From contig CAKNQN010000017.1 in NCBI GenBank assembly GCA_930990665.1, forward strand, positions 1-32,988: a stretch of DNA of 32,988 nucleotides, in the 5' to 3' direction. The DNA comes from an uncultured Clostridia bacterium. Its GTDB lineage: Bacteria; Bacillota; Clostridia; Christensenellales; Borkfalkiaceae. Positions 2,064 through 17,011 of the stretch are shown in pieces. The position numbers were made by a program, and so were the translations under genes. A model generated the notes under the pieces. The model was not told the DNA's origin. It made no database searches and was given only the letters and a program-made list of their open reading frames with translations. Numbering within the stretch: the first letter of the stretch is position 1; every line of letters begins with the position of its first letter.

Positions 2064-3041
2064 TCAAAGTTCAAAATCTTCGTAAAAATTTTCGCCCGAA
2101 TCGTCCTGTTTTTCCGGTTTGACGACGGTATCCTTATTGAGGAAATATTTTTTGCGATCGTAAGTATAGCTGCTCACGAACTGAATGCAGATGAGCATCA
2201 TATACGACATCGGAACCGTCAGAAGGAGCGCCGCGCCGAAAGACGAGAGCGCAAACAGAACATTCAGACACAGAATAAACATCGCCGTCACCACATAGGT
2301 GGAAAACAGCGGCCAGAACCTTTCTTTTTTGAACGCGAATGCCTTTTTGAGCGCCGCGCCGAGTTTGAGTTTATCCCCCACCATCGCAGGGACAACCCCG
2401 TTGAAGACGGTCAGCTTGAAGGCCTGGGAAACCAGGTACAGCGCGACCGAAAGCATGAGCGAGACGACCGAGGCGATGAGGCCGACGGAGAAAATGTTCA
2501 GAAGGACGAGGAAAAAGGCATAGCAGATGCCGAGAACGATGGCATCGTACACGAAAGTAACGGGCACATAGATCAGGTGCCACAGCGAGGCCTTGCCCAG
2601 ATTGCTCACCAGCGCACCCGTCAGAGAGACTTTCGCATAGCTGGACATCTTGTTGTCCAGAAGATACCCGAAGGCAAAATTCCCCAGTCCGCTGAGAAAG
2701 CGGGATACCAGAATGACAAAGACGAACGCGAGGAAAAACAGCACCACGTCCGTCGCATTGTTGCGGATATATTCGAGAAGAGTCCTCGTCTTTTCGCCCA
2801 GCTGCGGCCCGAACGTTTCGAGAAAAGCGGTATCCCCCGAGACGAGCGATTTGAAAAACTGCCCGAGAAGGTCCACCACATCCTGAAACTGACGGCTGGA
2901 AAACAGCGTGTTGAGCAAGGGATAGATCAGAGCCGCACTCAGGCCGAGCGTGATCGCACCCACGATGAGCTTATAAAACAACATCTTATAATTCAGCGAA
3001 AAATTATCGACGAGAAGATGAAAGGAATTTTTGAAGATCAC
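2064..3041 (-). CDS. Polytopic membrane protein, function unknown
   Basis: A 325-residue protein with about six hydrophobic segments. The first is near residues 25-45, followed by a soluble loop (about 50-95), then membrane segments from about 98 to 285. It ends in a charged, acidic cytoplasmic tail (EKQDDSGENFYEDFEL). The start is GTG at 3041, supported by GGGAGAG six bases upstream. It lies 15 bases after the gene at 3057-3872, another multi-spanning protein of similar build, so the two probably act together. I do not recognise the family and see no transporter signature or catalytic motif. The layout would suit an integral membrane assembly or envelope protein, but that is a guess. Confidence 0.75.
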   Translation of the reverse strand: MIFKNSFHLLVDNFSLNYKMLFYKLIVGAITLGLSAALIYPLLNTLFSSRQFQDVVDLLGQFFKSLVSGDTAFLETFGPQLGEKTRTLLEYIRNNATDVVLFFLAFVFVILVSRFLSGLGNFAFGYLLDNKMSSYAKVSLTGALVSNLGKASLWHLIYVPVTFVYDAIVLGICYAFFLVLLNIFSVGLIASVVSLMLSVALYLVSQAFKLTVFNGVVPAMVGDKLKLGAALKKAFAFKKERFWPLFSTYVVTAMFILCLNVLFALSSFGAALLLTVPMSYMMLICIQFVSSYTYDRKKYFLNKDTVVKPEKQDDSGENFYEDFEL

Positions 3042-3056
3042 GACAGACTCTCCCGC

Positions 3057-3872
3057 TTAAATTTTTTTCTTTAAGTCCATGCGCTCCTCGCCCGCCGCAT
3101 CGAAATAGGCGACGAACATCAGCACGCAGAAATACAGGATAAAAAACAGGAAGACGAGCTCGACAAGGAGAAACGCGGCCGGGAGAAAGGGTACGAACGC
3201 CACGATGAGCAGGCGCGCGGCAAAGCAGACGAGCGCGGGCAAAAACAGTGCCAGAAAGATCGGACCCTTTTTCCGCACGCTGAGGTTGTTCGAATAGACG
3301 AGCGCATCCATGTAATTGTAACCGGTGATCTGCAGGCAGGGAAGCCAGAGCAAAAAGGTGGAAAAAAGATAACCTAGCACCGCCACCATCCCCACCGCCG
3401 TGGCGAGGGCGACGATGCTGCAGGCGATCCCCCGCAGCAGAAACGTCTCGGCATAGATAAGGCCCGCCGTGATCAGCGCCCATATCTCATAGATGACCAG
3501 GCAGACAAGAAAAACGACGAGCGTTGTCAAAAAATTGAAGTTAAAGCGGCCGGCAATGCCTTTCCAGGTCCGGAACCCCAGGCGCATATGCTTTTCGATG
3601 AACCCGAACAACATGGGCAGACAGAGGACGGACGCAGCAAAAAAGATGAGCGCATACGCCCAGCCGTAGCTGTTGAAGGGAGAGAAAAAGGAAAAGATCT
3701 CGCCGAACTTGATCTCCACGTTCCCTCCGCTGCGGATAAAGGCATCGATCAGCGCGCGCACGGCGGCAGGCGACCCGGAAACCGCCAGAAAATAAGACGG
3801 GATCAGCACGAACGCGAACAAGAATATGAAGTTTTTGATAAGATATCTGAATGCGCCCGCTATGTACCGCAC
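3057..3872 (-). CDS. Polytopic membrane protein, function unknown
   Basis: A 271-residue protein with roughly six membrane segments: residues about 13-32, 72-95, 115-140, 150-185, 205-225 and 230-255. It ends in a basic tail (MDLKKKI). Translation starts at GTG 3872, which has GGAGG five bases upstream. It is the first gene of the operon driven by the promoter at 3930-3958, followed after 15 bases by a second membrane protein and then by phosphoglucomutase. No conserved motif I know is visible. The pairing suggests two subunits of one membrane complex, an inference from position and topology only. Confidence 0.75.
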   Translation of the reverse strand: MRYIAGAFRYLIKNFIFLFAFVLIPSYFLAVSGSPAAVRALIDAFIRSGGNVEIKFGEIFSFFSPFNSYGWAYALIFFAASVLCLPMLFGFIEKHMRLGFRTWKGIAGRFNFNFLTTLVVFLVCLVIYEIWALITAGLIYAETFLLRGIACSIVALATAVGMVAVLGYLFSTFLLWLPCLQITGYNYMDALVYSNNLSVRKKGPIFLALFLPALVCFAARLLIVAFVPFLPAAFLLVELVFLFFILYFCVLMFVAYFDAAGEERMDLKKKI

Positions 3873-4140: not shown

Positions 4141-4176
4141 GCACTTTCTTTTCCGTCCGGACGGAAAAGAAAGTGC
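4141..4176. repeat. 36-bp perfect palindrome
   Basis: An 18-base arm beginning GCACTTTCTTTTCC is followed immediately by its exact reverse complement, with no central spacer. No T-run follows on either side, so it does not look like an ordinary terminator. It lies between the left end of the phage module and the host operon promoter, where an attachment or recombination site, or a protein-binding operator, would be plausible. Confidence 0.85.
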
Positions 4177-4243
4177 AGCTTTCTGCCTTCCGCGCACCTT
4201 TCCTCTCCCCGCCGACAGCGAAATATGCGGCTTCCGATGCCTG

Positions 4244-4270
4244 AAAAAAGGGACCGGCGGCGCCGGTCCC
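4244..4270 (-). terminator. Intrinsic terminator of the phage structural operon
   Basis: On the minus strand a 9-bp stem (GGGACCGGC with GCCGGTCCC, 4250-4270) with a 3-base loop is followed directly by six T (4244-4249). It starts 32 bases after the last phage gene (stop at 4303) and marks the end of the leftward head-gene operon. Confidence 0.9.
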
Positions 4271-4302
4271 CCTGCCGGACTTTTGGGAGTACGGCACCCC
4301 TT

Positions 4303-4776
4303 TTACTGCACCAACAGGAGAAGCTGCAGCAGATAGTCGTAATAGCTGCCGAGATAGTCCTTGGCGATCTCGTCTTTTTCGAAGTCGGAGAGCGCCGCGG
4401 CCATATCGTCGTAGCCGAGGTAATAATTTTTGACGATCACATACCGATCGCGCATGGCAAGAGTATAGTCCACCTCGTAGGGCGCTTCGCCGGGGTCAAT
4501 CCCGGGAGGCGTCGTCCCGCCCGTGCCTTCCTCGGCGTACAGCGCTTCCAGACTCTCGTCGAGATCTTTCTGGATCTGCAAAACGAGCGCGTCGTACTTG
4601 TTTTTTCTGTCTGCGAGGATGTTTTCGAGGATGGTCGAACGGTCTATGCGCTGTTCGAGCGCACGGTATTTCGCCCGCAGACAGTCCTGCTCATATTCCT
4701 CCTTGGCAGCCGAGCTCGAAGCATTCGCCTCCTCTATGAGTTTCTGCACCGCCTTTTCCAGTTCTTCCGCCGTCAT
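4303..4776 (-). CDS. Small coiled-coil phage protein (last head-operon gene)
   Basis: A 157-residue protein. Residues 1-95 are strongly charged and heptad-like (EELEKAVQKLIEEAN..., LEQRIDR..., LQIQKDLDESLEALYAEE). A Gly/Pro linker follows (GTGGTTPPGIDPGE), then a Tyr-rich C-terminal part ending LLQLLLLVQ. Its ATG overlaps the stop of the gp10-like gene (ATGA) and has AAAGGAGG upstream, so the two are translationally coupled. In P22 the gene after gp10 encodes the needle gp26, a trimeric coiled coil; position and coiled-coil content are the only links, so that analogy is weak. No family recognised. Confidence 0.7.
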   Translation of the reverse strand: MTAEELEKAVQKLIEEANASSSAAKEEYEQDCLRAKYRALEQRIDRSTILENILADRKNKYDALVLQIQKDLDESLEALYAEEGTGGTTPPGIDPGEAPYEVDYTLAMRDRYVIVKNYYLGYDDMAAALSDFEKDEIAKDYLGSYYDYLLQLLLLVQ

Positions 4777-6083
4777 TGCAGTCCTCCTTTCGTATAGCGC
4801 ACGGTGAGCGCGCGAAGTTCACAGGCAGGCCCCTCGGAAAGAAGTTCGCAAAGAAACTGCCCGCCCGCCAGGTTCACGGCGGCGCGCGCACGGCCAAACG
4901 CGGCGTTCAGCCGCACGATACGTGTGCCCCTTTCGCCGGAAAATCGGATGACGTACATGCCTTTTCCGTACAAAACCACTTCGGAAAGACAGGATGGCTG
5001 GGCCAGCGGATTTTCCAGGCGGCGCACGATCCTGCGGGAGGGCGCCGCCCCCTTTTGCAGGCGGAACAGCCCCGCATCCGACGCGAAGATCACCTCGCCG
5101 CCGCAGGCCGATGCGAAAGAGGCCGACGCACGCACGACCTGCCTGTCTCCGCGCAGAGGGTGGATGAGCACGAAAGCGTCCTCCTCCCCTCCTTCCGTGC
5201 AGATGCGCGCGTGCAGAGTATACATTCCCGCCGCCGCAACGGCAAAGGGCGAAAGCTGGGTCTCGGAAAAGAAACGGCATGTATCCGCAAAATTTTCCTC
5301 CTTTCCGCCGTCGAACCGATGCAGGCCGTCTTCTCCCAGCCAATAGATACAGCCGCCCGTCTCGCAGACAGTTTCCGCATACACGCGGGCGCAGGAAAAC
5401 TCGTCGCGGACCTCGAATTCCGCCTCGTCACCGCGCGCCGAAAGGCGCTGCACGCCCTGCTCGCGGAAAAGATACAGATAATTTTCACGGCCGACCAGCG
5501 CGCAGATATCCCCCTTTTCGTCGGGAACCCGGACATATCCCCCGCCCCCGATCGCCGAGGAAAAATCCCGAAGGGCGCCCGGTGCCGAAAAATACAGCTG
5601 CTCTGCGTCCGAAGCGGGCACGAGCCACAGCCTTTCGTAGTGCCAGCAGGCGCACGAAAAGGCGGGGATCTCCGCCTCCGCGCCGACGCCGTCCGCCGCA
5701 AACAGGGCGACGGAAGTCCCGTCCGAAAGCAGCCAGCCCGCCTCGCCGCCGCTCACGCGGCAGGCGGCGGGGCGGGCCGCGAACTGCACGCCGGAATCGG
5801 TAAACGCCGACCCGCCCGCCGCGCAGTACCAGACCTTTCCGTCCGCGCTCACAAGGCAGTAAGCCCTGCCCTCCGCCCCGTCCAGAGCGTATACCGCCTG
5901 CGCCTGCTGCCCCTGGGGAAGGGTAAGCGGCAGAGCCTCGGCGCCGTACCCCGCACCGAGAAACTTTCCCTTGTCTTCAAAGCCGAAGTCGGGGGCATCC
6001 CCCTCGGACGAATCCTGCAAAGGCACCTCGCGCACCGCCGTGCGCACGCTGCCGGAAAGCGGCTTTTTCTGTGCCCGCATCAT
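4773..6083 (-). CDS. P22 gp10-like tail/DNA-stabilisation protein
   Basis: A 436-residue, beta-rich protein with short repeated strands typical of a propeller-like fold (examples: GKVWYCAAGG, YLYLFREQGVQRL, YWLGEDGLHRF, GLFRLQKGA) and no signal peptide or membrane segment. It follows the connector gene in the order portal, scaffold, coat, connector. In P22 that slot holds gp10, a 472-residue tail hub protein that plugs the vertex after packaging. The start ATG 6083 overlaps the stop of the upstream gene (ATGATG) and has GGAGG five bases before it; ATG 6080 is an alternative. The assignment rests on length, fold type and gene order; I see no diagnostic motif. Confidence 0.6.
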   Translation of the reverse strand: MMRAQKKPLSGSVRTAVREVPLQDSSEGDAPDFGFEDKGKFLGAGYGAEALPLTLPQGQQAQAVYALDGAEGRAYCLVSADGKVWYCAAGGSAFTDSGVQFAARPAACRVSGGEAGWLLSDGTSVALFAADGVGAEAEIPAFSCACWHYERLWLVPASDAEQLYFSAPGALRDFSSAIGGGGYVRVPDEKGDICALVGRENYLYLFREQGVQRLSARGDEAEFEVRDEFSCARVYAETVCETGGCIYWLGEDGLHRFDGGKEENFADTCRFFSETQLSPFAVAAAGMYTLHARICTEGGEEDAFVLIHPLRGDRQVVRASASFASACGGEVIFASDAGLFRLQKGAAPSRRIVRRLENPLAQPSCLSEVVLYGKGMYVIRFSGERGTRIVRLNAAFGRARAAVNLAGGQFLCELLSEGPACELRALTVRYTKGGLQ

Positions 6084-6634
6084 ACCCACCTCCGCATTTT
6101 CAGCCGCCCGCCCCGCTCGCGGCAGGCGCATGCGAGCGCGTCGCGGTACCGCCTGTCGAGCAGCTGCGCCGCGTCCGTAAGCCCGCTCATCAGCGCGTAT
6201 TCGCAGGCTGTGCCGAGCGCGAGGACCCGTTCGCCCGCCTTTCCGGAGACGGAAGGCTCGTCGTCCGCCTCTTTCACGGCCGGACGGTAAGAATAGGTCA
6301 CGCGGACGCTTCCCGCCTTCACGCGGATGCCCTCCTCCCCCTGCACGAAGGGGAGCTTTTCGCCCCCTTCGCCGTGCACGCTGAAGATCTCGAGCGGGGG
6401 AACTGCAAATGCCGTATACGCGAGCGCGCCGTCCGAATGGAGAATCTCCGTCTTTTTAAGCGGAAGATAATCGAGCGCGATCTCGTTTTCGGCAAGGTTA
6501 TAGCAGCGCAGAAGCGTCTCTTCCTCCCGCGCGGAAGCCGCGGCGTCTGCGGTCAGCCCCTTTTCAAGATAGTCCGCCACGTCGCGCCGGCCGCACAGCT
6601 CCGCCGCCAGCGCCATGATCTGTTTTACTTTCAT
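6080..6634 (-). CDS. Phage head-tail connector (P22 gp4-like position)
   Basis: A 184-residue protein with a helical N-terminal part (MKVKQIMALAAELCGRRDVA... LLRCYNLAENEIALDYLPL) and a beta central part (VPPLEIFSVHGEGGEKLPF, SVRVTYSYRPA). It ends with a helical, basic tail. This helix–beta–helix build is usual for connector or adaptor proteins that ring the portal. P22 gp4, the tail accessory factor, is 166 residues and occupies the same position after the coat gene. The frame stays open to 6787, but ATG 6634 is chosen because AAGGAGGG lies just upstream. The upstream hairpin at 6671-6699 probably lowers its expression relative to coat. Confidence 0.65.
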   Translation of the reverse strand: MKVKQIMALAAELCGRRDVADYLEKGLTADAAASAREEETLLRCYNLAENEIALDYLPLKKTEILHSDGALAYTAFAVPPLEIFSVHGEGGEKLPFVQGEEGIRVKAGSVRVTYSYRPAVKEADDEPSVSGKAGERVLALGTACEYALMSGLTDAAQLLDRRYRDALACACRERGGRLKMRRWV

Positions 6635-6670
6635 ATTCCCTCCTTGCCTTGCCCGGACTTGCGCCGGGCG

Positions 6671-6699
6671 AAAAGCGCCGCGCAATAATTGCGCGGCGC
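6671..6699 (-). terminator. Attenuator-like hairpin after the coat gene
   Basis: An 11-bp perfect stem (GCGCCGCGCAA with TTGCGCGGCGC, loop TAA) is followed on the minus strand by TTTT. It lies between the coat stop (6748) and the connector start (6634). Partial terminators after the major capsid gene commonly boost coat relative to the minor structural proteins. Confidence 0.6.
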
Positions 6700-6747
6700 C
6701 GCCCTTACGGGCCTTTTCCGCAGTCTGAACCGCGAAACTTCCTGTCT

Positions 6748-7920
6748 TTACGCTTCCGTGATGCCGGAAAGCATAGCCTGCCCGCACGGCCGCGTGCAGA
6801 TCAGGTCTGCATACTTGACGAGCGTCGCCGTGTAGAGCGGTTTGCCGGGCACCTGGCGCAGCACTTTGCCGTCATCCCCTTCCAGCCACTTCCAGTCGCA
6901 CAGCTGGTGCAGCGTGAAGTCGGCGGAGTTCAGAAGATACATCGTGCCGTCCGGGCAGAAACGGTCTGCCACCACCGGGATTCCGTTGTACGTCATCGTG
7001 CGATAGCCGCCCGCAAGCTCGGTCATGTCGCTGTTGGTGCGGGAGGCGGAAAGCACCTCCTGCAGCGCGCGCTTGACGCCCCAGCTGCAGAGGATCATAT
7101 CGACGCGGCTGCCCGCCGTCTCTTCCAGCTTGTCGATCGCCTTCTGGATCTTGATCTCCGAAAGCTCGCCCACGCTCGTCTGCATATACGGGACCATCCA
7201 CTTGTGCGTGGAGCGGTCGATGCCGTACAGCGTGCCGGTATCCTGGAAAATGGCGCCCAGCCCCGTGAGTTCAAGGTTGTAGGAACCCTGCACGCACACG
7301 ATGTTGCTTTCCGCCACGCCCGACAGGGCGCCGCCGGAAAGGGTGATCGTGTTGGCGTCGCGGTCGACGGAAAGGATGCGCCTGCCCGTCGCGCCCGAAA
7401 CGGCGCCGCCGCCCGAAGTAAGGATATCCACCGTCATCCCTTCGATGACGTTTTTGACGGAATCGACGGTGACCGTCGTTCCGCTCGCCGAGGAAACGGT
7501 GCAAAGGACGCCCGAACCGTCGCCGAAAAGCATCCTGCCGAAATTGAAGGCGGAAGAGCGGATCAGCCCCTCCATCTCCGCGGTGAGCAGGTTCACGAAC
7601 GCGCCCGCGTTGTTTTCGGAAGCGCGAACCGCCTTGTCGCTGATCTCCACCGTGCCGTAAAGGTTTTTCAGGGTGGTCACAAACTGCTCGTAGTTGTTGC
7701 CCGCCGCCGCAGGGAGCGCGCCCTCTTCGGTGCCTGCCCCCACGCCGCCGTTGACGCCGTACTGCGCAAGGCGGCGCACCTCCTTGCCCCATACGTCCGC
7801 CGTAGACTGGCGCACCTTGGCAAGGAAGGGGTTCACCTCCGTATTCAGCTGCTGCGAAATGGCGCCGAGATAATAGCTCTTTAATGCACTGTCTGCACTG
7901 GTCAAAGTTACCATAGTCAA
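6748..7920 (-). CDS. Phage major capsid (coat) protein
   Basis: A 390-residue coat protein expected to have the HK97 fold. The N-terminus (MTMVTLTSADSALKSYYLGAISQQLN...FLAKVRQST) is typical of scaffold-assembled coats without a cleaved delta domain. A glycine-rich, beta-only stretch around 133-215 (SGTTVTVDSVKNVIEGMTVDI, GRRILSVDRDANTITLSGGAL) looks like an inserted domain, as P22 coat carries an I-domain. The C-terminal part (LYGIDRSTHKWMVPYM, SWGVKRALQEVLSASR, YNGIPVVADRFCPDGTMYLLN) matches the core of phage capsids that bind nascent shells. TTG 7920 sits six bases after GGAGG; ATG 7914 is an alternative. It follows the scaffold gene after 73 bases. Confidence 0.85.
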   Translation of the reverse strand: MTMVTLTSADSALKSYYLGAISQQLNTEVNPFLAKVRQSTADVWGKEVRRLAQYGVNGGVGAGTEEGALPAAAGNNYEQFVTTLKNLYGTVEISDKAVRASENNAGAFVNLLTAEMEGLIRSSAFNFGRMLFGDGSGVLCTVSSASGTTVTVDSVKNVIEGMTVDILTSGGGAVSGATGRRILSVDRDANTITLSGGALSGVAESNIVCVQGSYNLELTGLGAIFQDTGTLYGIDRSTHKWMVPYMQTSVGELSEIKIQKAIDKLEETAGSRVDMILCSWGVKRALQEVLSASRTNSDMTELAGGYRTMTYNGIPVVADRFCPDGTMYLLNSADFTLHQLCDWKWLEGDDGKVLRQVPGKPLYTATLVKYADLICTRPCGQAMLSGITEA

Positions 7921-7993
7921 ATTATTCCTCCGTCAGATTTACGCGGCGGCGCGCGGCACGCGTGCCGCCTTTTTGCAGATTTTCGTGCATACG

Positions 7994-8413
7994 TTACTCA
8001 ATTTTTTTGAACATGGCCGCCGCCAGCGCGGCAGCCTCTTCGAGGGTATGCGCCTTCTGCGCGGGGGCAGCGGAAAATGCGCCGCCCTCCGCCATAAGAT
8101 AGGGCGGCCGCTCTTTCGAGAGGTACGCGTCTACCGCGCGTTCCACCTCTTTGCGGAACCGTCCGTCCTCCGCCGCCTCCGTACGGGGCGGCTCTTCCGC
8201 GCGCGGCGGCTCTTCGGCCGCGCGCGCTTCCCTGCCCTCCAATTCGCGCAGACGCTGGCTGCGGCGGGTAAACTCAGCCTCCAGCGAATTGTACGCGCTG
8301 AGAAGGGCTTCCGCGCTCCTGAATTTCCCGAAAGGTGCCGCCGCGCCTTCCTGCATCCGAGCCTCCGCTCCCTGCGCCGTCTCCTCTCCGGTCGTGTTGT
8401 TCTCCTTCTCCAA
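7994..8413 (-). CDS. Phage scaffold-like protein
   Basis: A 139-residue, highly charged protein rich in Glu, Ala and Arg with long helical stretches (EALLSAYNSLEAEFTRRSQRLRELEGREARAAEE) and an Ala/Pro/Glu-rich middle. It ends in an amphipathic helix (TLEEAAALAAAMFKKIE), the kind of coat-binding tail seen in scaffolds. It lies between portal and coat, the standard scaffold slot. TTG 8413 is used as start because GGGAGGAGA precedes it by six bases. It is shorter than P22 gp8 (303 residues). No protease domain is visible. Confidence 0.7.
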   Translation of the reverse strand: MEKENNTTGEETAQGAEARMQEGAAAPFGKFRSAEALLSAYNSLEAEFTRRSQRLRELEGREARAAEEPPRAEEPPRTEAAEDGRFRKEVERAVDAYLSKERPPYLMAEGGAFSAAPAQKAHTLEEAAALAAAMFKKIE

Positions 8414-8464
8414 CTTTCTCCTCCCTTTTGCCGCTTTGCCCGCCCGCGCGGAAGCGGCTGTTTT

Positions 8465-10357
8465 TTATTCGCGCACGGGCGGCGTGGAATTTTGCGCCTG
8501 TACAGCCTGCGCTTTTTCCCGCCTCTGCCCTTCGTGCGCACGGATGTGCGCCACGAATCTTGCCTTTGCCTCCGGCTGCGCCCGCTTGAACTCGTCGGAA
8601 AGCAAAAACCGCGTATGTTCGGCGACGTGCGCGGCGTCGTCGTCATACCAATCGACGTCCACTTCCCCGCTTGCCAGCTGCAGATTTTCCTCTGCCGCCT
8701 TGTTCGTGTGCATGGCCGTCATGCCGCGCGCCTGTTCCAGCCCGCCGAAGCCGAGCGCGTCCAGCACCTTTTCCTTCGTCTGCACGGGAACCTTCCCGTT
8801 CTCATCTTCCAGCACGCCCAGCCGGTACAGCTCGTAGATGAGCGACCTGCGCTGCGACGGGGATTCGGCACTCTCCGAATCCGCTTCGAACACCACGTCG
8901 TCCGACGAGATGTCCGACGCGGAAAAATAATACATCTTGACCTTTTCGCCCTCGCCCGCCATGCGCATCAGCCGCTTTTCGCCCGCAAACTGCCGCATGA
9001 GACGCAGGATATGTTTCCCGACACAGATCACGGCGCGCCGTATGCTCTCCACCGTGACCATCAGCCTCGTGTCGTCCAGATCGATCAAAAGCTGCAATCC
9101 CGTGGCGCTCGTCACGTTGGTGCGGTTCTGGGTGGAGGAGCTGATCTCGCTCACACCGCTGACAAGGACGAACTCGTCGAGCAGGCGTTCCTCCTCCGCG
9201 CCGAAATCGTACGGCACCGAATCGGCGCCGAGCATTTTGGGCGGCGTGGCACCCTGGCGGTACACGAGCACCTTTCCGGGCGGAAGTCCCTCTTCGAGCA
9301 GCTCTTCCGTGTCCACCGAGCCGTCTTCCACGGCAAGGACGCCCATCGTCAACCTGTTCAGAAACTCGTGTTCGCGGTTTTTGAGCGCGTTGAAGGCGCG
9401 CTGGATGGGGATCATCCTGTCGATGATGCTCGTTCCGAAAAAGGCGCCCGTAAGATGAAGCGCCGACTGCTTCACGAACGGATAGCTCCGCCCGCCCCGC
9501 TCACCGTTCCGATAAGGGAGGTCGCCGCAATGGACGAGCTTTCCGCCCGCCACCACCACGAGCCTGCCGTTCGGAAAATCCGCGCAGGGCTTTTGGTAAT
9601 ACTCGATGACGAGCTCGCTTTCGCGCAGCACGTTGCGCGCCGAAAGCCCCGCCCCGCCCGCAAAATTGGCGGCCTCCGAATAGGGCGCCAGCGAAAATTC
9701 CGCGATCTCGCGGCCGGGCAGGCGAATGCCGTAGCGCTCGAAGATCTCCGAAACGGGCATCGCCTTGGCATGGATGATGCTGGGCTGGTCTTCCACCCGC
9801 TCGCAGCCGAGATTTTCCGGATAGATCTCGAAGGGCGGAAGGGCCGCAATGCGCACCCCCTCTCCGCTCCAGAGCACCTTATAAAAGGCTGTGCCGCACG
9901 TCTCGCTCCACATCGTGGCGCGCGTGATCACGTCGCTGAATGCGCACTCGTCGCAGACGGAGCGGAGCACGCTCGTGCATACCTTGGCGGTATACAGGTC
10001 CCCCTCCTCGCCCGTGGCAGCGCGCACCGTCATGTTCGGCCGCACGCGCGCCAGCTTCGCCAGACGAGTGTCGATGGTGGGCGCGATGTGGTTGAACACG
10101 CGGCGGTATTGCCAAAAATAGCGCGGCTCTTCCTGCTCGATCTCTCCGTCGGGGCCGATGCGGCAATACTGATTTCCCGAAAGAAAGTTCATGTTCAGCT
10201 CCCAGCCCCTTTCGAGGAACCGCCTCTCCGCACGGCGGCGCTCAAACTCCGCGCACACCTCTGCCGCCAGGCGCTCCTCCGCCTTTTTCTGCATATCCGC
10301 TGCCCCTTCCGCCGACAGGGCGGCGCGGGCGCGTATGCTCTGCGTCTTCTTGCTCAA
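8465..10357 (-). CDS. Phage portal protein (P22-like)
   Basis: A 630-residue portal, the dodecameric ring through which DNA enters and leaves the capsid. Family-like segments include GWELNMNFLSGNQYCRI, YFWQYRRVFNHIAPTIDTRLAKLARVRPNM, MWSETCGTAFYKVLWSG and SIIDRMIPIQRAFNALKNREHEFLNR. The last is the wing/stem helix region shared by P22-type portals. The C-terminus is Gln/Ala-rich. TTG 10357 is the chosen start: AAGGAGGAAG lies upstream and the TTG overlaps the preceding stop (TTGA), implying coupling. The open frame continues upstream to 10618, but that stretch overlaps the preceding gene and is Arg/Gly-rich. P22 gp1 is 725 residues. Confidence 0.88.
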   Translation of the reverse strand: MSKKTQSIRARAALSAEGAADMQKKAEERLAAEVCAEFERRRAERRFLERGWELNMNFLSGNQYCRIGPDGEIEQEEPRYFWQYRRVFNHIAPTIDTRLAKLARVRPNMTVRAATGEEGDLYTAKVCTSVLRSVCDECAFSDVITRATMWSETCGTAFYKVLWSGEGVRIAALPPFEIYPENLGCERVEDQPSIIHAKAMPVSEIFERYGIRLPGREIAEFSLAPYSEAANFAGGAGLSARNVLRESELVIEYYQKPCADFPNGRLVVVAGGKLVHCGDLPYRNGERGGRSYPFVKQSALHLTGAFFGTSIIDRMIPIQRAFNALKNREHEFLNRLTMGVLAVEDGSVDTEELLEEGLPPGKVLVYRQGATPPKMLGADSVPYDFGAEEERLLDEFVLVSGVSEISSSTQNRTNVTSATGLQLLIDLDDTRLMVTVESIRRAVICVGKHILRLMRQFAGEKRLMRMAGEGEKVKMYYFSASDISSDDVVFEADSESAESPSQRRSLIYELYRLGVLEDENGKVPVQTKEKVLDALGFGGLEQARGMTAMHTNKAAEENLQLASGEVDVDWYDDDAAHVAEHTRFLLSDEFKRAQPEAKARFVAHIRAHEGQRREKAQAVQAQNSTPPVRE

Positions 10358-10614
10358 TTTTCTTCCTCCTTCAACATCTGCAAAAGTCTGTGCTTTTCCC
10401 GTTCGATCTGCTCGTCGCTCATTTCCCGCGGCGACGGCAGCTCGCCGAGCAGCATCTTTGCCGCTTGTATATCGGGCGGAACGCTCTTCCTCGTCACCTT
10501 CTTTTTTACGAGGATCTCCTCCCCTTCCCGAAATCCGTATTCCTCCACCACTTCGTCCGTCTCGTACCCGAGCGCCTTTCTTTCCAGCGCGCGGCGCACT
10601 CTTTCCTCTTCCAC
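10354..10614 (-). CDS. Small phage protein between terminase and portal; TerS-C-terminus-like motif
   Basis: An 86-residue charged protein: an N-terminal helix, a segment reading EEILVKKKVTRKSVPPD, then IQAAKMLLGEL and a charged C-terminal helix (DEQIEREKHRLLQMLKEEEN). The pattern of basic strand, PPD and xxAxxxL resembles the C-terminal region of many phage small terminase subunits, where a VPPD/VPGD motif precedes a helix. The DNA-binding N-terminal half of a small terminase is missing. GTG 10614 is used because AAGGAG lies five bases upstream; its stop overlaps the portal TTG. Function is unknown; a shortened packaging adaptor is possible. Confidence 0.55.
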   Translation of the reverse strand: MEEERVRRALERKALGYETDEVVEEYGFREGEEILVKKKVTRKSVPPDIQAAKMLLGELPSPREMSDEQIEREKHRLLQMLKEEEN

Positions 10615-10652
10615 ACATTCTCCTTCCCGCACGAGGCCGCCGTGCGGATGTT

Positions 10653-12089
10653 TTATTCGGGCCCTCGCCCCCTCGCCGCGCGGCGCATCAGCCGCATCTT
10701 GTCCCGCTGCAGCGCGGTGGGCTGCGGAAGGGGCGGCGCGTTCTTCGGCTTGGTCATCAGATAGTAGCGCAGCTCGTCGAGAGAGTGATCGTCCCGCTTT
10801 TTCGGCACGTCCCCTTCCCCCCAGAAATATCCCTTGATCTCGCGTATGAGATTCACACAATTTTCAAAAATGTACAGCTTCGGCTTTCCGTTTTCCCCCT
10901 TGAGGTAGCTTTTCACCCGTGCGATGCCCGCAAAGAGATCTTTGTCGACGCGCGCATTGACGTTGATGCCCTGTTCATAGAACAGCTCGCTCACGCTCTT
11001 GGAGGCGGCAAGCGTGCGCTGGTTGGCCGCCGAATCGATGAGCGCGCACAGTCTTCCCCCGTAATCGGTGTGCCAGCCAAGCTTGCGGCTGATCTCCCGG
11101 ATCTTCTCCGCATGATACCCCACGTCTTTGCCCGCTTCGTAATGCTCCGCGACGACATACACATTGCCGTCAAAGTCCACGCAGTACCAGTGCGCCGAAA
11201 GCGGATTGTTGAGCCCGGGGTCGATGGAAATGGTATCCTGCCACTCAGGCGGCACCGAAAAGGGTGCAATTACGTGGGTACGTTCATCAAATTCCGGGTA
11301 CACCAGCCCCTCTTTCACGCAAAATTTACCGTAGCGGCGGCTCTGCAGTTCCTGCGCGTCCATCACCTGCGAAAGGTGAGCGATCTCGCTCTTTTTCAGA
11401 AAGGGGTTGTCTGCCCATTCCATGAACTCGTACCACACTTCGGGGTCGTTTCGCTTGTTCATGTAGATCTCGTCGAACAGAAACGTGAGTCCCTTGAGCG
11501 GGGTCATCGTGCCGAAGATGTCCCCCTTTCTGTCCATCACGCGCATGACGCATTCGCGGTAAACGTCCTCGGGCGGCTCCTCGTCGAACCACACAAAATC
11601 CAGCGACGCCCCCTGAAACTTTTCGCGGCCCTGGTCGCAGCTCTTGAACCCGATCACCGAGATCCCGCCGAACACATTGCGCACGCGGATCTGGTCGATG
11701 ACGCCCGAAGGCGACCCCTTTTTTCCGGAAAGCATCACCACGTCCTCGATCCACCCAGGCGAAAGATACTGCAAAATCTTCTTCTGCGCCACATCCCTCT
11801 GCACCTGCTGCGACAGAGACACCACCCAGCCGAACACGTCTTTCCTGTTCTTGCGATAGGGATGGATCCCGCGCGCCATGTACACGCACTCGGCAGCCCC
11901 GCACTCCGTCTTACCGCTCCGATTCCCCCCGAAAACCCAGCGGTTGCGCTTCTTGCATCTGTGAAAGGCGATCTGCTTCCGATGTTTTTTGCGGCCGCTG
12001 TTGTAGCGGGCAAGCGCGTTTTCGGCGCTCCGCCGCCGCTCCTCCCCCTCCAGCTCCAGAATCCGCTGCACGATCTCCGCTTCCGTCAT
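10653..12089 (-). CDS. terL: Phage terminase large subunit
   Basis: A 478-residue packaging motor. The ATPase domain shows Walker A GNRSGKT (about 55-61), Walker B FVWFDEE (about 165-171, with the catalytic Glu) and a coupling motif near GTMTP (about 193-197). The RNase H-like nuclease domain shows SIDPGLNNP (D290), ALIDSAAN (D352) and a distal acidic motif KKRDDHSLDELRYYL. All key residues are present, so the enzyme looks intact. ATG 12089 is chosen because AGAGGTGA lies just upstream; the frame is open to 12152 without a ribosome site. P22 gp2 has 499 residues. No conventional small terminase gene precedes it; 12090-12437 holds only repeats and basic low-complexity frames. Confidence 0.93.
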   Translation of the reverse strand: MTEAEIVQRILELEGEERRRSAENALARYNSGRKKHRKQIAFHRCKKRNRWVFGGNRSGKTECGAAECVYMARGIHPYRKNRKDVFGWVVSLSQQVQRDVAQKKILQYLSPGWIEDVVMLSGKKGSPSGVIDQIRVRNVFGGISVIGFKSCDQGREKFQGASLDFVWFDEEPPEDVYRECVMRVMDRKGDIFGTMTPLKGLTFLFDEIYMNKRNDPEVWYEFMEWADNPFLKKSEIAHLSQVMDAQELQSRRYGKFCVKEGLVYPEFDERTHVIAPFSVPPEWQDTISIDPGLNNPLSAHWYCVDFDGNVYVVAEHYEAGKDVGYHAEKIREISRKLGWHTDYGGRLCALIDSAANQRTLAASKSVSELFYEQGINVNARVDKDLFAGIARVKSYLKGENGKPKLYIFENCVNLIREIKGYFWGEGDVPKKRDDHSLDELRYYLMTKPKNAPPLPQPTALQRDKMRLMRRAARGRGPE

Positions 12090-12243
12090 TCTCTCACCTC
12101 TGTCATCTGCCCGCTCTCCCGTCGCTCTCCCTTGCCGCCTTTTGCCGCACACCTTTTCCGGTTCGTTCTGTTTTTGTTCGCCCGCCTTTCACTCGGGCGC
12201 TTTTTTGCCGCTTCTGACTTTGGCATATCCCGCTTTATGCCTC

Positions 12244-12322
12244 GTCCGCCATACACGCCGTTTTTTCTCGCCTGCCTTTGCCGCATCCCGCTTTTCTTGT
12301 CCGCCATACACGCCGTTTTTTC
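12244..12322. repeat. 24-bp direct repeat, two copies (55-bp period)
   Basis: GTCCGCCATACACGCCGTTT followed by TTTC occurs at 12244-12267 and again at 12299-12322, identical over 24 bases. The flanks are related too: ATCCCGCTTT precedes both copies by a few bases, so the true unit is an imperfect tandem repeat of about 55 bp. Confidence 0.85.
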
Positions 12323-12383
12323 ACGCTTGCCATGGCCGCGGCACAAATGTGACAAAATCCGTGAAAATACGTGCCGAAAACTT

Positions 12384-12412
12384 TTTTCCCGCGTTCGGAT
12401 CCGCTGTATAAT
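12384..12412 (+). promoter_or_regulatory. Probable sigma-A promoter of the gene at 12438
   Basis: A perfect -10 TATAAT (12407-12412) is followed by GG. The region 17 bases upstream reads TTTTCC (12384-12389), a weak -35. The implied leader is about 19 bases and contains the AAGGAGGT ribosome site. An activator or alternative -35 contact may be needed. Confidence 0.55.
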
Positions 12413-12437
12413 GGCTCTTGCGCGAAGGAGGTAATTT

Positions 12438-13124
12438 ATGAAACTGCTATTTTCCTTTCTCACCGCGGCGGCGATGCTGTTTTTTCTCTCCCCTTCTGCC
12501 GTGCGGGCGGAGGAAACAGCGCGCTACGCGCGCATCCTGGATGAGGAAGTGTATTTTTACGAGCGAGCCGAAGCCGAAAGCGGACTGTTCGTTCTGCCGC
12601 GCACCTATTTTGTGCGCATCACGGGCGAAGAAGGCAATTATTACGCCGCCGAATACCGCACGGGCAGCGCGGCGCTGCAAGGATATTGTCTGAAATCGCA
12701 GGTGGAGCTTGTCGATTATGTTCCCGAAACGCCCTATCTCGACTACACGATCGAAGTCGTGTTCGAAACGGAGGGTGCGGAACAGCTGCCCGCCGGCTTT
12801 ATCACCCGTTATACGGTGGAGGCGGACTTCTACGGCACCTTTTCTTACGGATCGGCGATCTATTACTACGTTTCCCTCGAAGGGGATTTCGGCTATGTTC
12901 CCGCGACCGCCTGCGCTCCCCTCGATTATCCGGAAAACACCGAACATATGCAGGAGGAAAGTTCTCCGCCCGCCCCTCAGGAGAGCGGCGGCATGAACGC
13001 GGTGAACATCGTCCTTATCTGCGCCCTTTCGGTGGCCGGGATCGGCGCCGTATATTTCCTGTTCCGCCCTGCAAAACCGCCGCGGCCGCAGACGTATGGC
13101 GAAGACGCCGAAGACCCATTCTGA
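12438..13124 (+). CDS. Secreted SH3-like protein with C-terminal membrane anchor, unknown function
   Basis: A 228-residue protein with an N-terminal signal peptide (MKLLFSFLTAAAMLFFLSPSAVRAEE, cut near 24). An extracellular beta-rich domain follows, with two SH3-like stretches (ARILDEEVYFYERAEAE...FVRITGEEGNYYAAEY and FITRYTVEADFYG...YYYVSLEGDFGYVPA). After a Pro/Ser/Glu linker there is one membrane segment (VNIVLICALSVAGIGAVYFLF) and a short basic tail. AAGGAGGT precedes the ATG by five bases. It has its own promoter and faces opposite to the phage genes around it. The build (signal, SH3-like region, C-terminal anchor) mirrors the larger protein at 14336-17011, so both may be cell-wall-facing proteins of one pathway. 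It could be a phage cargo gene or a host gene split off by insertion. Confidence 0.8.
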   Translation: MKLLFSFLTAAAMLFFLSPSAVRAEETARYARILDEEVYFYERAEAESGLFVLPRTYFVRITGEEGNYYAAEYRTGSAALQGYCLKSQVELVDYVPETPYLDYTIEVVFETEGAEQLPAGFITRYTVEADFYGTFSYGSAIYYYVSLEGDFGYVPATACAPLDYPENTEHMQEESSPPAPQESGGMNAVNIVLICALSVAGIGAVYFLFRPAKPPRPQTYGEDAEDPF

Positions 13125-13194
13125 GCCCCGCTTTCCCCGCTTTTATGTACAAAATTACGGGATACGTCACCATATTTTCCGAACTGATCGCTCC

Positions 13195-13238
13195 AAGCGG
13201 CGCCCGCCGGGATCCTTCCGCGGCGGGCGCCGCTTTGT
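13195..13238 (+). terminator. Terminator of the 12438 gene
   Basis: A 15-bp perfect stem (AAGCGGCGCCCGCCG with its complement, 13195-13209 and 13221-13235) with an 11-base loop, followed by TTGTCT on the plus strand. It lies between two convergent genes. The U-tract is poor and there is none on the minus strand, so termination rests on stem strength. Confidence 0.6.
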
Positions 13239-13274
13239 CTGCAAGAAGCGTCCGGAAAGATTTGCCGCGCCCCT

Positions 13275-13829
13275 TCAGACGGAAAGAGGTTTTTCCTTTT
13301 CCTCCCTTTCGCCCTTCCCGCTCCCGTCGGAAAAACGGACGGTCCGCCGCACGCGCTTGTCGCAAAAGCTCTTTTCTCCGCCCGCCCTGACCTTCTCGAG
13401 CGCTGCCATCACATAGGGAACGCCCGAATAGGTGGTCATGAACCAGTCCTCGCTCAGCCCGCGCCGCAATAAGAGGGCATTGAATTTGTCCGCCAGACGG
13501 TTCTGGCGCCGGAAATAGGTGCGCTCGCTGCAATCCATGCGCAGATCGGCAAACTCCCCCGCCAGCTTCTGCTTTCTGCGGAAATATTTGTATTCGAGAA
13601 GATACCGCTCCTCCCTGCAAAGCTGCGCGAGAACTTCGTCCATCTCCGCCTTCATCGCAAGAAAACAGCCACGCACGTAGATATAATCGAGCACTCTCTC
13701 CACGCTCTTTTCCGCCCCCTCGCCCGCTCCGCAACAACACGCCAGCGCGTTCACGATCTTTCGTATATCCTCCGCAATCCTCTCCAGTTTCGGATAGAGA
13801 AGCAACATCACCTTCTGATACGCCTTCAT
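13275..13829 (-). CDS. ArpU/sigma-region-4-like phage late regulator
   Basis: A 184-residue protein. Residues about 65-125 contain a sigma-70 region 4/ArpU-like helix-turn-helix: REERYLLEYKYF...KLAGEFADL...CSERTYFRRQNRLADKF. This follows the common phage pattern LLExRY...aeelgySerqvyrlh. An N-terminal helical part (KVMLLLYPKLERIAEDIRKIV) and a basic C-terminal tail flank it. ATG 13829 has AAGGAGGTG upstream. Proteins of this class activate late (head and packaging) genes and usually sit just upstream of the terminase genes, as here. Its promoter (13881-13909) is preceded by a LexA-type box, so induction by DNA damage is likely. A highly diverged small terminase is an alternative reading. Confidence 0.65.
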   Translation of the reverse strand: MKAYQKVMLLLYPKLERIAEDIRKIVNALACCCGAGEGAEKSVERVLDYIYVRGCFLAMKAEMDEVLAQLCREERYLLEYKYFRRKQKLAGEFADLRMDCSERTYFRRQNRLADKFNALLLRRGLSEDWFMTTYSGVPYVMAALEKVRAGGEKSFCDKRVRRTVRFSDGSGKGEREEKEKPLSV

Positions 13830-13880
13830 CTCCGCACCTCCTTGCCCGCTCTTTCGGGCGCACTCCCATTATCGCATATA

Positions 13881-13909
13881 ATTCTGCTTTCCCGAGCGGT
13901 ACATGTCAA
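13881..13909 (-). promoter_or_regulatory. Sigma-A promoter of the phage regulator
   Basis: On the minus strand a perfect TTGACA (13904-13909) lies 17 bases from CAGAAT (13881-13886). Transcription would start near 13875, about 46 bases before the ATG at 13829. The upstream dyad at 13909-13936 abuts the -35. Confidence 0.75.
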
Positions 13910-13936
13910 AAAATACGAACATATGTTTGTATTTTT
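13909..13936. promoter_or_regulatory. LexA/DinR-type SOS box (operator)
   Basis: The core CGAACATATGTTTG (13916-13929) matches the Firmicutes LexA consensus CGAACRNRYGTTYC at 13 of 14 positions. It sits in a longer 28-base dyad (AAAAATA...TATTTTT arms) broken at only one base pair. The dyad directly abuts the TTGACA of the regulator promoter, so bound LexA could hinder RNA polymerase. Confidence 0.75.
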
Positions 13937-13953
13937 CTGAAGACAGTATAGCG

Positions 13954-13991
13954 AATAAAACAGGCATGCGTTTGCCTGTTTTATTATTTTT
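13954..13991 (+). terminator. Rho-independent terminator without an obvious upstream gene
   Basis: A 13-bp perfect stem (AATAAAACAGGCA with TGCCTGTTTTATT, loop TGCGTT) followed by A and five T on the plus strand. There is no plus-strand gene between 13124 and this site, so it would stop read-through or antisense transcripts aimed at the 14336 gene, or end a small unannotated RNA. On the minus strand only the stem T's are available. Confidence 0.7.
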
Positions 13992-14055
13992 CTGGAAAGA
14001 TTTGGAAATTTTTTATTATTTGACGCAATTTTACGCCTGAACCGAGAGAAGAACT

Positions 14056-14120: not shown

Positions 14121-14249
14121 AAAGTGATTACAGGCCATAATCTACCGAAAGACGGGGTTGTTCGGCTTAGAGGAACGGGGCGAGCAGGGCAATGACGAGG
14201 GCGGGAACATTTGGCAAGAGGCAAAAAGCGCAAATTTTGTAAAATTTTG

Positions 14250-14335: not shown

Positions 14336-17011
14336 ATGAAAAAGGCTCTTTTGACCATCTTAACGGCGTTGGCGCTCATGGCGGCGCTGTATATACCGGC
14401 GGCGCAAAGCGCGGCCGGCGCTCCTGCACAGAGCGGAGAACTCGGGCTCAACCTGCTGTTGCCGGAGACGTACGAACAGTATCTTGAGCTGGAAAATCCC
14501 TCCGACTTTGCCGTCAACGATGATTATATCGCCATTGCGGATGCCCCTGCCGGCGGCAACGCCCGCATCTATATTTTCGACCGGAATGACCCGGCCGCGG
14601 GATACCGCGTATATGAGCACAGCGCCGCTTCCACCCTCACCTCCCTGCAGTTTTACTCGAGCGGCGAGGAAACGCACCTGTATTTTGTTTCCAGCGGCAC
14701 GAGCACCTTCATCTACCATTTCAGTCTCACCGCGGCGTCTGAAAGCTTCGCCGCCGAGCAGACGAGCGTATCCTGCGTCTCTTTCCTGATCAGCGGCAAA
14801 TATATGTTCTATGCGACGAGCACGGGCGGCAACATCACCGTCGCGCGCATGGATATGCAGGGCTTTGACTTCGCGGGGCCCGAACAGACGCTCACCCTGC
14901 CGGACGGGCTCACCGCTACCAACATCAACCCCTATTTCGCACAGAGCTACACCGCAGGCGATTCGGACAGGATCTATTTTTCCGCCAACAGCGCCATCTG
15001 CTCGGTGACGGGAGACAGCCTCACAGCGACGGAAGAATGGTCGCTCTCCTCTTCTATCCGCAGCTTTGCAGTCGTCGGACAGGAAGTTTATTATTCCACC
15101 ACCGCACTCCAGCCCCCTCTGTTCGTTTACAGCAACGGCGACAGCACGGAGATCCGGAGGAACGGCGAAGAAGTCGTCAATGTTCCCTCTATGCGGCTGA
15201 TCGGCGATACGCTGTACCTGCTCTGCGGAAAAAATCTGCAGACCTTCGATCCCGCTTCCCGCACTTTTGAGGAATATGAGATCGGAAAATATTCGGTGAG
15301 CGACGTCCGCCTGGGTGGCGCCGCGACGATCTCCGCATACGACGGAAACCTCGTCATCGCAGACCAGGCCAACCGGCGCGTCATGGTGTATTCTTCCCGA
15401 ACGCAAAGCTATTCTTATCTGCGCGGTCTCAGCTATATCCCCGCCGCCGTCTGCGCGGGAGAAGATTGTTTCCTCGTCGCAGACAACGAGGCAAACCGCC
15501 TGTATATCTATCGATACGAAGATTTTTCTCCTCTCCTCGAAAGCCCCTTCGCGCTGAGCGGAGATATGCTCGACGGAGCTTATTCGTTCGGAAGTTTCTA
15601 TCTTCTGACTGCGGGAACTCAGCACGGCGCCGTCATCGGACAGACGGATTCCGGATATCAGATCACGCCCGCCAGCCTGTCCGGCACCTTTTCACAGATC
15701 GCGGCCGATCTTTTAGGCAATCTGTACCTGATGAACGGTGGCGCGGTGTACCCCGTCAGCGAAGAGAATTTCCGGACCGGAACGGTGGGCGAAAGCCTGC
15801 ATTCTTTCGGCAGCGACGCCATCGATCTCGCCGTCGACTATACCGGAGCATTGTGCGCTGTCACGCCCGATGCCCTTCTCACCTATAAAGACAGGACGCC
15901 CGCGACCCTTCCCGCCGAAACGGCGCTTGCGCAGCTCGTCTATTCACAGAGGAAGATCGAGCCGGCCTCTCTCGTTTTCGACCCGATCACGGGGGATTGC
16001 TACCTGCTCGGCGACGGCTTTATCGCGACCGTGCAGGGGCTCGGCCTTTCCTCCCTGAGCAATCTTTCCGCCGAAGGCGTATACGAGGATATCTTTGCAT
16101 CGTCGCCCGCAGCGGGCACGGCGGAAAACGGTCTGCTCATCACCGCACCCGCGGGGACCGTGGCAGTCACGCTCGACGCCGCGACGCTGGAAGAGAGCAC
16201 GCGCGCCCTTCTCGACTGCGGCGATTACCGCCGCCTCGACAGCGAACGCACGGGTATCGTCCTCTCACAGCAGAGCTACGGAACGATCGTGCTTTTCCAT
16301 CAGGGCGACGCTTCGGTATCCCCTATCCGCCACGACTACGAGATCTGTCTGCTCCTCGACACCGACGCGGAGATGCTGCATAGCGGCATCGACGGCAGCG
16401 TCACGGGCAATGCAACGGTGAGTAACGCCGTCGGCGTGTACCGCTTCCCCGCCATGCGCATCGGCACCACGGCCAGCGAAGGGAATACCGGAAACACCTA
16501 CCAAGTGTTCGGACGCATCACGCAGCTTGCACGCGGACAGAAAGTGACTCTCCTCGGATATGTATCCGATCAGCAAGGCGCGCTGGATACAGACTACTAT
16601 TTCGTATCCTATACCTCCGAAGGGGGACAGACCGCCTACGGATTTGTGCCCGCCGCGTACATTCTCGGCGAAGGGAGCGGCGGCGTAAGCGGAACGCAGC
16701 AGATCTCTTACCGCCGTCTCGACCGCGGCGAAAGCGTGACGCTCTCGCAATACGGCGACCCGTCCTCGACCATCGAACTTTCCAACCGCGAACTTCTCAA
16801 AGTTTACGACGATACCTTAGACAGCGAAGGGCGCGTCTATGTGGAATATTCCGAAGGCAATACCCTGTATGTCGGCTGGATCTACGAGAGCCAGCTGTAT
16901 GAAGCGACGCCCGCCGTCATTGCGGTGCTCGTCGTCGTGAGCGTGGTGGCCGCCGCCGTCATCCTCAGCGTCTGCTACCTGCTCCTGCGCAAACAGCCTA
17001 CCTTGCAGTAA
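14336..17011 (+). CDS. Large secreted beta-propeller-like protein with C-terminal membrane anchor
   Basis: An 891-residue protein with a signal peptide (MKKALLTILTALALMAALYIPAAQSAAG, cut near 25-30). A long extracellular part is built of repeated short beta segments (for example RIYIFDRND, RVMVYSSRTQSYSYLRGL, NRLYIYRYEDFS, LYLMNGGAVYPVS), consistent with one or more NHL/WD-type propellers. Near residues 700-860 lie SH3-like segments (VFGRITQLARGQKVTLLGYV, AYGFVPAAYIL, GWIYESQLY). One membrane segment (PAVIAVLVVVSVVAAAVILSV) and a basic tail end the protein. ATG 14336 is preferred over 14267 because the earlier frame overlaps the promoter. Probably a host envelope or sensing protein; no catalytic motif seen. 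Its anchor-last layout matches the 12438 gene. Confidence 0.8.
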   Translation: MKKALLTILTALALMAALYIPAAQSAAGAPAQSGELGLNLLLPETYEQYLELENPSDFAVNDDYIAIADAPAGGNARIYIFDRNDPAAGYRVYEHSAASTLTSLQFYSSGEETHLYFVSSGTSTFIYHFSLTAASESFAAEQTSVSCVSFLISGKYMFYATSTGGNITVARMDMQGFDFAGPEQTLTLPDGLTATNINPYFAQSYTAGDSDRIYFSANSAICSVTGDSLTATEEWSLSSSIRSFAVVGQEVYYSTTALQPPLFVYSNGDSTEIRRNGEEVVNVPSMRLIGDTLYLLCGKNLQTFDPASRTFEEYEIGKYSVSDVRLGGAATISAYDGNLVIADQANRRVMVYSSRTQSYSYLRGLSYIPAAVCAGEDCFLVADNEANRLYIYRYEDFSPLLESPFALSGDMLDGAYSFGSFYLLTAGTQHGAVIGQTDSGYQITPASLSGTFSQIAADLLGNLYLMNGGAVYPVSEENFRTGTVGESLHSFGSDAIDLAVDYTGALCAVTPDALLTYKDRTPATLPAETALAQLVYSQRKIEPASLVFDPITGDCYLLGDGFIATVQGLGLSSLSNLSAEGVYEDIFASSPAAGTAENGLLITAPAGTVAVTLDAATLEESTRALLDCGDYRRLDSERTGIVLSQQSYGTIVLFHQGDASVSPIRHDYEICLLLDTDAEMLHSGIDGSVTGNATVSNAVGVYRFPAMRIGTTASEGNTGNTYQVFGRITQLARGQKVTLLGYVSDQQGALDTDYYFVSYTSEGGQTAYGFVPAAYILGEGSGGVSGTQQISYRRLDRGESVTLSQYGDPSSTIELSNRELLKVYDDTLDSEGRVYVEYSEGNTLYVGWIYESQLYEATPAVIAVLVVVSVVAAAVILSVCYLLLRKQPTLQ

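Follow-up and report, generated by a model that had tools for sequence, protein, structure and literature searches.

A compact podovirus-type head and DNA-packaging operon of an uncultured Clostridia bacterium is most probably a domesticated, vertically inherited module with the function of a gene transfer agent (GTA), as judged by sequence comparison. The window, that is, the whole stretch of DNA analysed, is the complete contig CAKNQN010000017.1 (32,988 nucleotides; contig G000:C17 in the genome set) of a 1.5-Mb genome that is 74% complete. The genes for the large terminase (TerL), a small terminase (TerS), the portal protein, a scaffold candidate, the capsid protein, gp4-like and gp10-like proteins and a coiled-coil protein run along its minus strand. 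The block between positions 4303 and 13829 is the most widely conserved part, its neighbours on either side being present in fewer loci. The cluster is carried by nearly all genomes of the host family in the same gene order, it has been inherited largely vertically and under purifying selection, and the key residues of TerL are intact. Among the named relatives of the capsid locus are several assemblies of 'Candidatus Borkfalkia', a taxon placed by the NCBI taxonomy in Clostridia, Christensenellales.

Head and packaging proteins

TerL matched the family Terminase_6N with 46.5 bits (cut-off 22), and the portal protein matched P22_portal (60.6 bits, cut-off 26.1), SU10_portal (30.1, cut-off 30) and phrog_156 (E 6e-33). 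The coat protein was assigned to the major head protein family phrog_14242 (E 5e-64) and scored just below the cut-off against SU10_MCP (23.4, cut-off 24.1). The scaffold candidate, which matched no library family above cut-off, was detected in 80 of 81 loci (the window and 80 loci of named genomes) with a profile built from those same loci. An earlier note on this DNA, made from the sequence alone, had described a tightly packed P22-type head and packaging module with intact frames and TerL catalytic residues. All listed frames are indeed open, and the lysine of Walker A, the Asp-Glu of Walker B and the aspartates of three nuclease motifs, as these motifs are presumed to be named, were invariant in the 45 aligned sequences; DNA is therefore probably still packaged.

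The same note had seen no small terminase, and here it has to be corrected, as the small gene that follows TerL encodes a truncated TerS. Its product of about 92 amino acids matched only positions 189–242 of the 319 in phrog_309 (E 6e-6). In the TerS set, 20 of the 23 family members matched phrog_309 and 8 matched a second TerS family; the gene was thus rejected as an ordinary phage gene lying between TerL and portal. Both the alignment and the profile matches showed that the N-terminal part, which is taken to contain the DNA-binding domain in this type of TerS, is absent, with the exception of three aligned rows (L085, L088 and L105) that have longer N-termini according to the start of the open reading frame (ORF). 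The TerS profile gave nothing convincing (best E 0.079) in the phages Jasmine, DS1, EBPR podovirus 1 and Baldr or in the class-level loci, including the prophage L296, and no phage record was found by tblastn with one TerS member. By analogy, a TerS without its N-terminal part suggests a resemblance to GTAs that package DNA without sequence choice.

Distribution and genomic location

The TerL query matched 129 of 151 relatives: 38 of 40 genomes of the same genus (counting the window's own), 49 of 51 genomes of the family's other genera and 42 of 60 genomes belonging to the order's other families. In these last, 28 matches had 55–71% identity and were spread across 16 families. Two genomes of the family without TerL (G050 and G071) carry the portal gene and a third (G009) has its coiled-coil gene, at the end of a contig, so that G016 is the one genome of the family left without a match. 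At least one cluster gene was thus detected in 39/40 genomes of the genus and in 51/51 of the other family genera, and 17 of the 33 sampled families of the order have the element. G122 is the one genome with a second full copy in the GTA range of similarity; the second matches of other genomes are pieces or distant. Within the class, the capsid query matched 26 of 391 genomes.

The full set of seven core genes was present in 53 of the 81 loci, and in all 53 it was collinear on one strand, as judged by 3' ends. Of the 31 close-relative loci (capsids 72–92% identical), 23 extend far enough downstream of the cluster for memB and memA to be seen, and 17 of these have the two genes there; nhl lies upstream in 18 of the 23 that reach far enough on that side (exceptions L032, L040, L044, L051 and L058). 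The place of the cluster is therefore common to most, not all, close relatives. The search of the genus for the same block at the same locus, proposed in the earlier note, thus turned out in favour of a resident module, and the occurrence in a single strain that it had named as contrary evidence is not what was observed.

Inheritance and selection

TerL and rpoB tree distances agreed closely within the family (r 0.87, 31 genomes, Mantel p 1e-4), and of the 15 TerL splits with support, 12 were compatible with supported rpoB splits. These comparisons were based on 45 genomes chosen to span genera and families out of the 115 with TerL identity of at least 55%, with partial rpoB rows and quick trees. 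In the tree, a single branch separated the TerL rows from eight phage or prophage rows (Shimodaira–Hasegawa-like approximate likelihood ratio test, SH-aLRT, 85; long branches flagged).

TerL and the capsid protein are under purifying selection. The median ratios of nonsynonymous to synonymous substitution rates (dN/dS) were 0.166 for TerL, 0.177 for capsid, 0.25 for portal and 0.27 for TerS, followed by 0.39 for both sh3 and gp4, 0.41 for the scaffold candidate and 0.45 for the coiled-coil gene; the flanking PGM gene had 0.105. They were calculated by the Nei–Gojobori method for pairs with dS of 0.05–1.2, rows with internal stops or less than 60% of the length being dropped; the pairs include duplicate genomes (several of L002–L030 equal those from L031 onwards), by which pair numbers are inflated, and pairs without differences lie beyond the dS limits. 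This check on TerL, portal and coat, also proposed in the earlier note, gave no sign of relaxed selection. The GC content at third codon positions (GC3) of the cluster tracks that of its flanks across hosts (r 0.987, 31 loci, range 0.17–0.85), and its total GC content is slightly above that of the flanks (mean +0.043, higher in 25/31 loci). The agreement of the trees, the dN/dS values and the GC3 match therefore indicate long residence under selection.

Tail candidates and release

A short tail core, formed by candidates for adaptor and nozzle, is probably present, according to weak sequence matches and an all-beta structural model. For the gp4-like profile A2 the top PDB sequence, matched weakly with E 0.26, was a tail tubular protein A. 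The gp10-like protein matched phrog_3287 (E 1e-3), its profile A1 matched the 'Surface protein' 7z47 (E 0.006), which is presumably that of phage SU10, and its AlphaFold model was all-beta, with a predicted local distance difference test score of 87.6. These matches are leads to adaptor and nozzle roles, not proof of them. The earlier statement that no tail is visible was thus right for fibres and spikes and wrong for the putative short tail core. The gp10-like gene is the fastest-changing one measured, with 28–39% identity to that of the window in close relatives whose capsids are 72–92% identical; such change would suit a part in contact with a receptor, and the nozzle-like protein may bind the recipient. 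The coiled-coil gene at the end of the cluster weakly matched PF25588 (E 0.16), the family that cc10, a gene that comes after gp10 in other genera and families, matched at 1e-26.

In other genera and families the cluster continues with fibre-like genes, one of them matching a PHROG tail family with E 1e-31, and with holins of the BhlA and Phage_holin_1 families. The BhlA holin was detected in 13 of 151 genomes, in 11 of them on the contig of the cluster and in the other two with TerL at or near a contig end. Holins were searched with PF10960, PF05105 and PF04531, and fibres with the fibre-like alignment A6, which within the genus gave a single weak match (G032, E 1.6e-4). The earlier note had named nearby lysis and tail genes as contrary evidence; such genes do belong to the cluster, in the other genera and families, and this fits a fuller ancestral GTA and not a refutation.

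Regulator and SH3 gene

Two conserved genes upstream of TerL, reg and sh3, belong to the block as well, which corrects the gene list of the earlier note. The product of reg resembles the end of sigma factors (profile A3 against 8x6g, E 0.0019), with weak matches to the transcription regulators phrog_36 and phrog_248, and the gene is kept upstream of TerL. Profile A4 of sh3 matched the autolytic lysozyme chain 4krt (E 6e-5). The 53 full-core loci contain reg in 45 cases and the reversed sh3 in 47, and in all 47 the latter lies on the strand opposite to TerL. At one locus (L032/L317, genome G033) about 5 kb of carbohydrate-type genes, classified by eye, lie between sh3 and TerL.

Assessment of the proposed function and of alternative explanations

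The following mechanism is proposed for the GTA. The sigma-like regulator would activate the operon in a subset of cells, scaffold and capsid proteins would build a small head on the portal, and TerL together with the TerS without N-terminal part would fill it with host DNA, with no choice of sequence. Adaptor and nozzle would then close the head to give a short-tailed particle, and the cell would lyse, by BhlA-type holins in other families, the particle taking host DNA to kin.

A GTA is defined by six features in PMC9662315 (section 3), and three of them are found at the locus: gene content, genomic fixation and co-inheritance. Protein similarity, which that section accepts, indicates particle proteins derived from caudoviricetes; endogenization is complete, with a chromosomal place between host flanks (split in G140); and the cluster has co-diversified with its hosts. 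The locus works like a GTA with high probability.

Several observations weigh against this interpretation. Across all 45 genomes the correlation between TerL and rpoB distances was low (r 0.51, Mantel p 1e-4), 3 of the 15 supported TerL splits conflict with rpoB and merely 11 of 42 splits are shared; together with the differing downstream neighbours of 6 of 23 close relatives (L034, L040, L041, L045, L054 and L056), the conflicting splits point to some movement, rearrangement or weak signal. In other families, 14 of the 42 TerL matches had about 27–32% identity and resemble ordinary phage, and 18 of 60 genomes gave no TerL match. Genome G016 has the flank genes and no cluster was found in it, and TerL and portal were not found in G117 (family f28, 100% complete); these real-looking absences show that the cluster is dispensable. 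The dN/dS values of gp10 (0.65) and reg (0.485) exceed those of the flanking memA (0.33) and memB (0.43). The BhlA holin was found in none of the 91 family genomes and two further Pfam holin families in none of 55, which leaves the exit of particles there unexplained, and the alignment search gave no fibre relative in the window's genome (74% complete). The same searches bear on a second operon with fibre and lysis genes like that described for the GTA of Faecalibacterium (FpGTA) in the available part of PMC12946183, and no such operon was detected with them (BhlA 0/91, two holin families 0/55, A6 absent from G000).

The missing fibre relative and the lack of known holins in the family would also be expected of a domesticated particle with another use, such as kin killing, export of DNA for biofilm or repair, or PBSX-like packaging without injection, a function that PMC12946183, in the part available, raises for FpGTA itself. 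This alternative is considered unlikely, since the conserved key residues of TerL (45/45) indicate that DNA is probably still packaged, and the candidates for adaptor and nozzle have been retained.

Far less credence is given to the two other origins that the earlier note had left beside a GTA-like one, an eroded prophage and a capsid-forming satellite; an ordinary phage was tested as well and set aside with them. No integrase, repressor, replication or lysis gene was found among the window ORFs scanned, as would be expected of a prophage eroded to its head genes and on its way out, and the cluster is broken by insertions in some relatives and lacking in G016 and G117; near-universal presence in the family, constant order, purifying selection, intact key residues and host-matched GC3 make such decay very improbable, presence being not sporadic and selection not relaxed. 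A phage satellite or mobile island packaged into a head of its own encoding is just as improbable: the compact head module without replication genes, the 15 IMG/VR contigs that carry a relative of the cluster and the other downstream neighbours in 6 of 23 close relatives would agree with it, but no integrase was seen among the ORFs scanned, no exact direct repeat of at least 18 bases brackets the block (positions 2000–18500 searched), the neighbours are common to 17/23 close relatives, and 14 of the 15 IMG/VR loci hold several cluster genes arranged as on the chromosome, accompanied in some by reg, sh3, memA or holin genes. Imperfect repeats around the block, e.g. 3216–3235 and 14749–14768 (85%), are chance-like, so that the attachment-site repeats (attL/attR) that the earlier note had named as contrary evidence did not appear. 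In one genome of family f28 (G140) the operon is moreover divided between two sites, with TerL at 136 kb and capsid at 181 kb, a distance of about 45 kb, which is also difficult to reconcile with a satellite; in another of that family (G271) it is in one piece (L293). The GTA-like option of the earlier note is, on the other hand, strongly supported by near-universal presence in the family, a place that most close relatives share, a TerL tree that is congruent with the hosts inside the family, purifying selection, host-matched GC3 and the truncated TerS.

Beyond the GTA function itself, a wider proposal is offered tentatively, as possible rather than probable. The cluster would be an ancient podovirus-type GTA that predates the family splits and has been kept even in genomes of about 0.8–1.2 Mb (f28), with its own sigma-like switch and the SH3 membrane protein as envelope partner (receptor or self-protection), and mobile defence islands would silence it by inserting into its genes.

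Comparison with known systems

By gene content, compared by gene kinds and not by sequence, FpGTA is the closest known system. Both FpGTA, as described in the available part of PMC12946183, and the present cluster are podovirus-like operons of about 10 kb on the chromosome of gut Clostridia, with a truncated TerS (that of FpGTA without obvious DNA-binding domain), TerL, portal, scaffold (here by position) and capsid. Particles and packaged host DNA have been demonstrated for FpGTA. The same part of that source reports that FpGTA was not found in Gemmiger or Subdoligranulum; it also reports experimental evidence of GTA-like packaging in 'Christensenellaceae (HMG11616, QANA01)', in 3 of 25 events, and names no gene cluster for it. 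Unlike in FpGTA, TerS follows TerL in the cluster described here, and the sigma-like regulator and the reversed SH3 gene precede TerL. Its 17 families belong to an order that is taken to differ from that of Faecalibacterium, and a presumed Faecalibacterium 16S probe matched none of 391 genomes.

The GTA of Rhodobacter (RcGTA) is similar in having a vertically inherited head operon, with lysis genes elsewhere, and a TerS without the N-terminal DNA-binding part (PMC6854486, PMC9662315, in the parts available). It is set apart, by description, by a tail of 49 nm, in contrast to the podovirus-type portal and short-tail candidates of the present cluster.

Among phages, P22 and SU10-like phages have portal and capsid families in common with the cluster. 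The order TerL, small genes, portal, hypothetical gene and capsid of Arthrobacter phage Jasmine is alike. For TerL and capsid the best identity to the phages compared, which included Jasmine and Cellulosimicrobium phage DS1, was about 30%, and the truncated TerS has no relative among the genes that separate TerL from portal in Jasmine, DS1 and EBPR podovirus 1. A prophage-type relative, L296 (G307:C18), has helicase-like, TerS-like, TerL, portal and capsid genes and very long frames after the gp10-like one, and would be useful as a sister for comparison.

In another group of the class (f76), capsid matches were obtained in all 5 sampled genomes, with a small scaffold–capsid operon in four loci (L280–L283). 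Two loci read frame by frame have gp4-like and gp10-like frames and lie beside housekeeping genes; neither TerL nor portal was detected within the stretch. They are maybe a second, dispersed GTA-like system.

Features of the window, neighbouring genes and insertions

The features of the cluster and its flanks are detailed in Table 1. Host-type genes lie on both sides, as the earlier note had stated: PGM and two membrane-like genes on one side, and genes including EamA and HGSNAT on the other. Neither a tRNA nor any Rfam family at the gathering threshold was detected within the window.

Table 1. Positions of the cluster genes and flanking features in the window.
Feature	Positions	Strand	Basis and remarks
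reg, sigma-70 region-4-like regulator, candidate activator of the cluster	13275..13829	-	Profile and weak PHROG matches; conserved 5' of TerL
sh3, SH3-like part with signal peptide and membrane segment (by eye)	12438..13124	+	Profile match; between reg and TerL
Intergenic region between divergent sh3 and TerL	12153..12437		Sequence; 44-nt direct repeat 12241-12284 / 12296-12339, 89%; putative regulatory role
TerL, large terminase	10653..12089	-	PF03237, phrog_2; ORF to 12152, predicted start 12089
Truncated TerS, C-terminal part, ~92 aa	10354..10632	-	phrog_309; predicted start
Portal protein, 609 aa	8465..10294	-	P22_portal, phrog_156; predicted start 10294
Scaffold candidate, 139 aa	7994..8413	-	Position between portal and capsid
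Major capsid protein	6748..7920	-	phrog_14242; SU10_MCP near cut-off
gp4-like head-tail adaptor candidate	6080..6634	-	Weak profile match and position; predicted start
gp10/nozzle-like tail hub candidate, fast-evolving	4773..6131	-	phrog_3287, profile, AlphaFold model; start uncertain
Coiled-coil protein, perhaps a short relative of cc10	4303..4776	-	Position; weak PF25588 match
memA and memB, flanking membrane proteins (by eye)	2064..3872	-	Downstream of the cluster in most close relatives
PGM, flank	277-2067		Pfam match; beyond memA/memB
nhl, flanking secreted membrane-anchored protein (by eye)	14336..17011	+	Upstream of the cluster in most close relatives and in further family genera

Additionally, an SSB-like two-OB protein gene and a polysaccharide-deacetylase-like gene (by eye), located at 17247–18744 of the window, adjoin the cluster in several families. 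At the low-GC contig end (30574–32735) GmrSD-type and Schlafen-group-3 helicase genes are present, perhaps a defence island.

Insertions were observed in several relatives. In three IMG/VR loci (L278, L274 and L277) the capsid gene carries a methylase- or restriction-type island (by eye) around codon 381, one of these islands holding a serine-recombinase-like frame, and two contigs (G048:C28 and G079:C22) break at or near the same codon. In L309 (G046) methylase and TIR-like genes take the place of the part from about codon 299 of TerL to the capsid tail, and in L315/L316 (G014) the TerL frame is broken near codon 460, next to two recombinase-like genes; these gene names were assigned by eye. 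The GTA genes thus look like recurrent insertion sites.

Significance

Known GTAs are few and mostly alphaproteobacterial. Literature searches found no paper naming this cluster, PMC12946183 being the sole directly relevant one, and a GTA-like lineage that reaches 17 of the 33 families sampled in an order of gut Clostridia is new as far as the literature was searched. The cluster would offer candidate genes for the GTA-like packaging reported in Christensenellaceae and, if the interpretation as a GTA is true, an order of mostly uncultured gut Clostridia would gain a built-in route for the exchange of chromosomal DNA.

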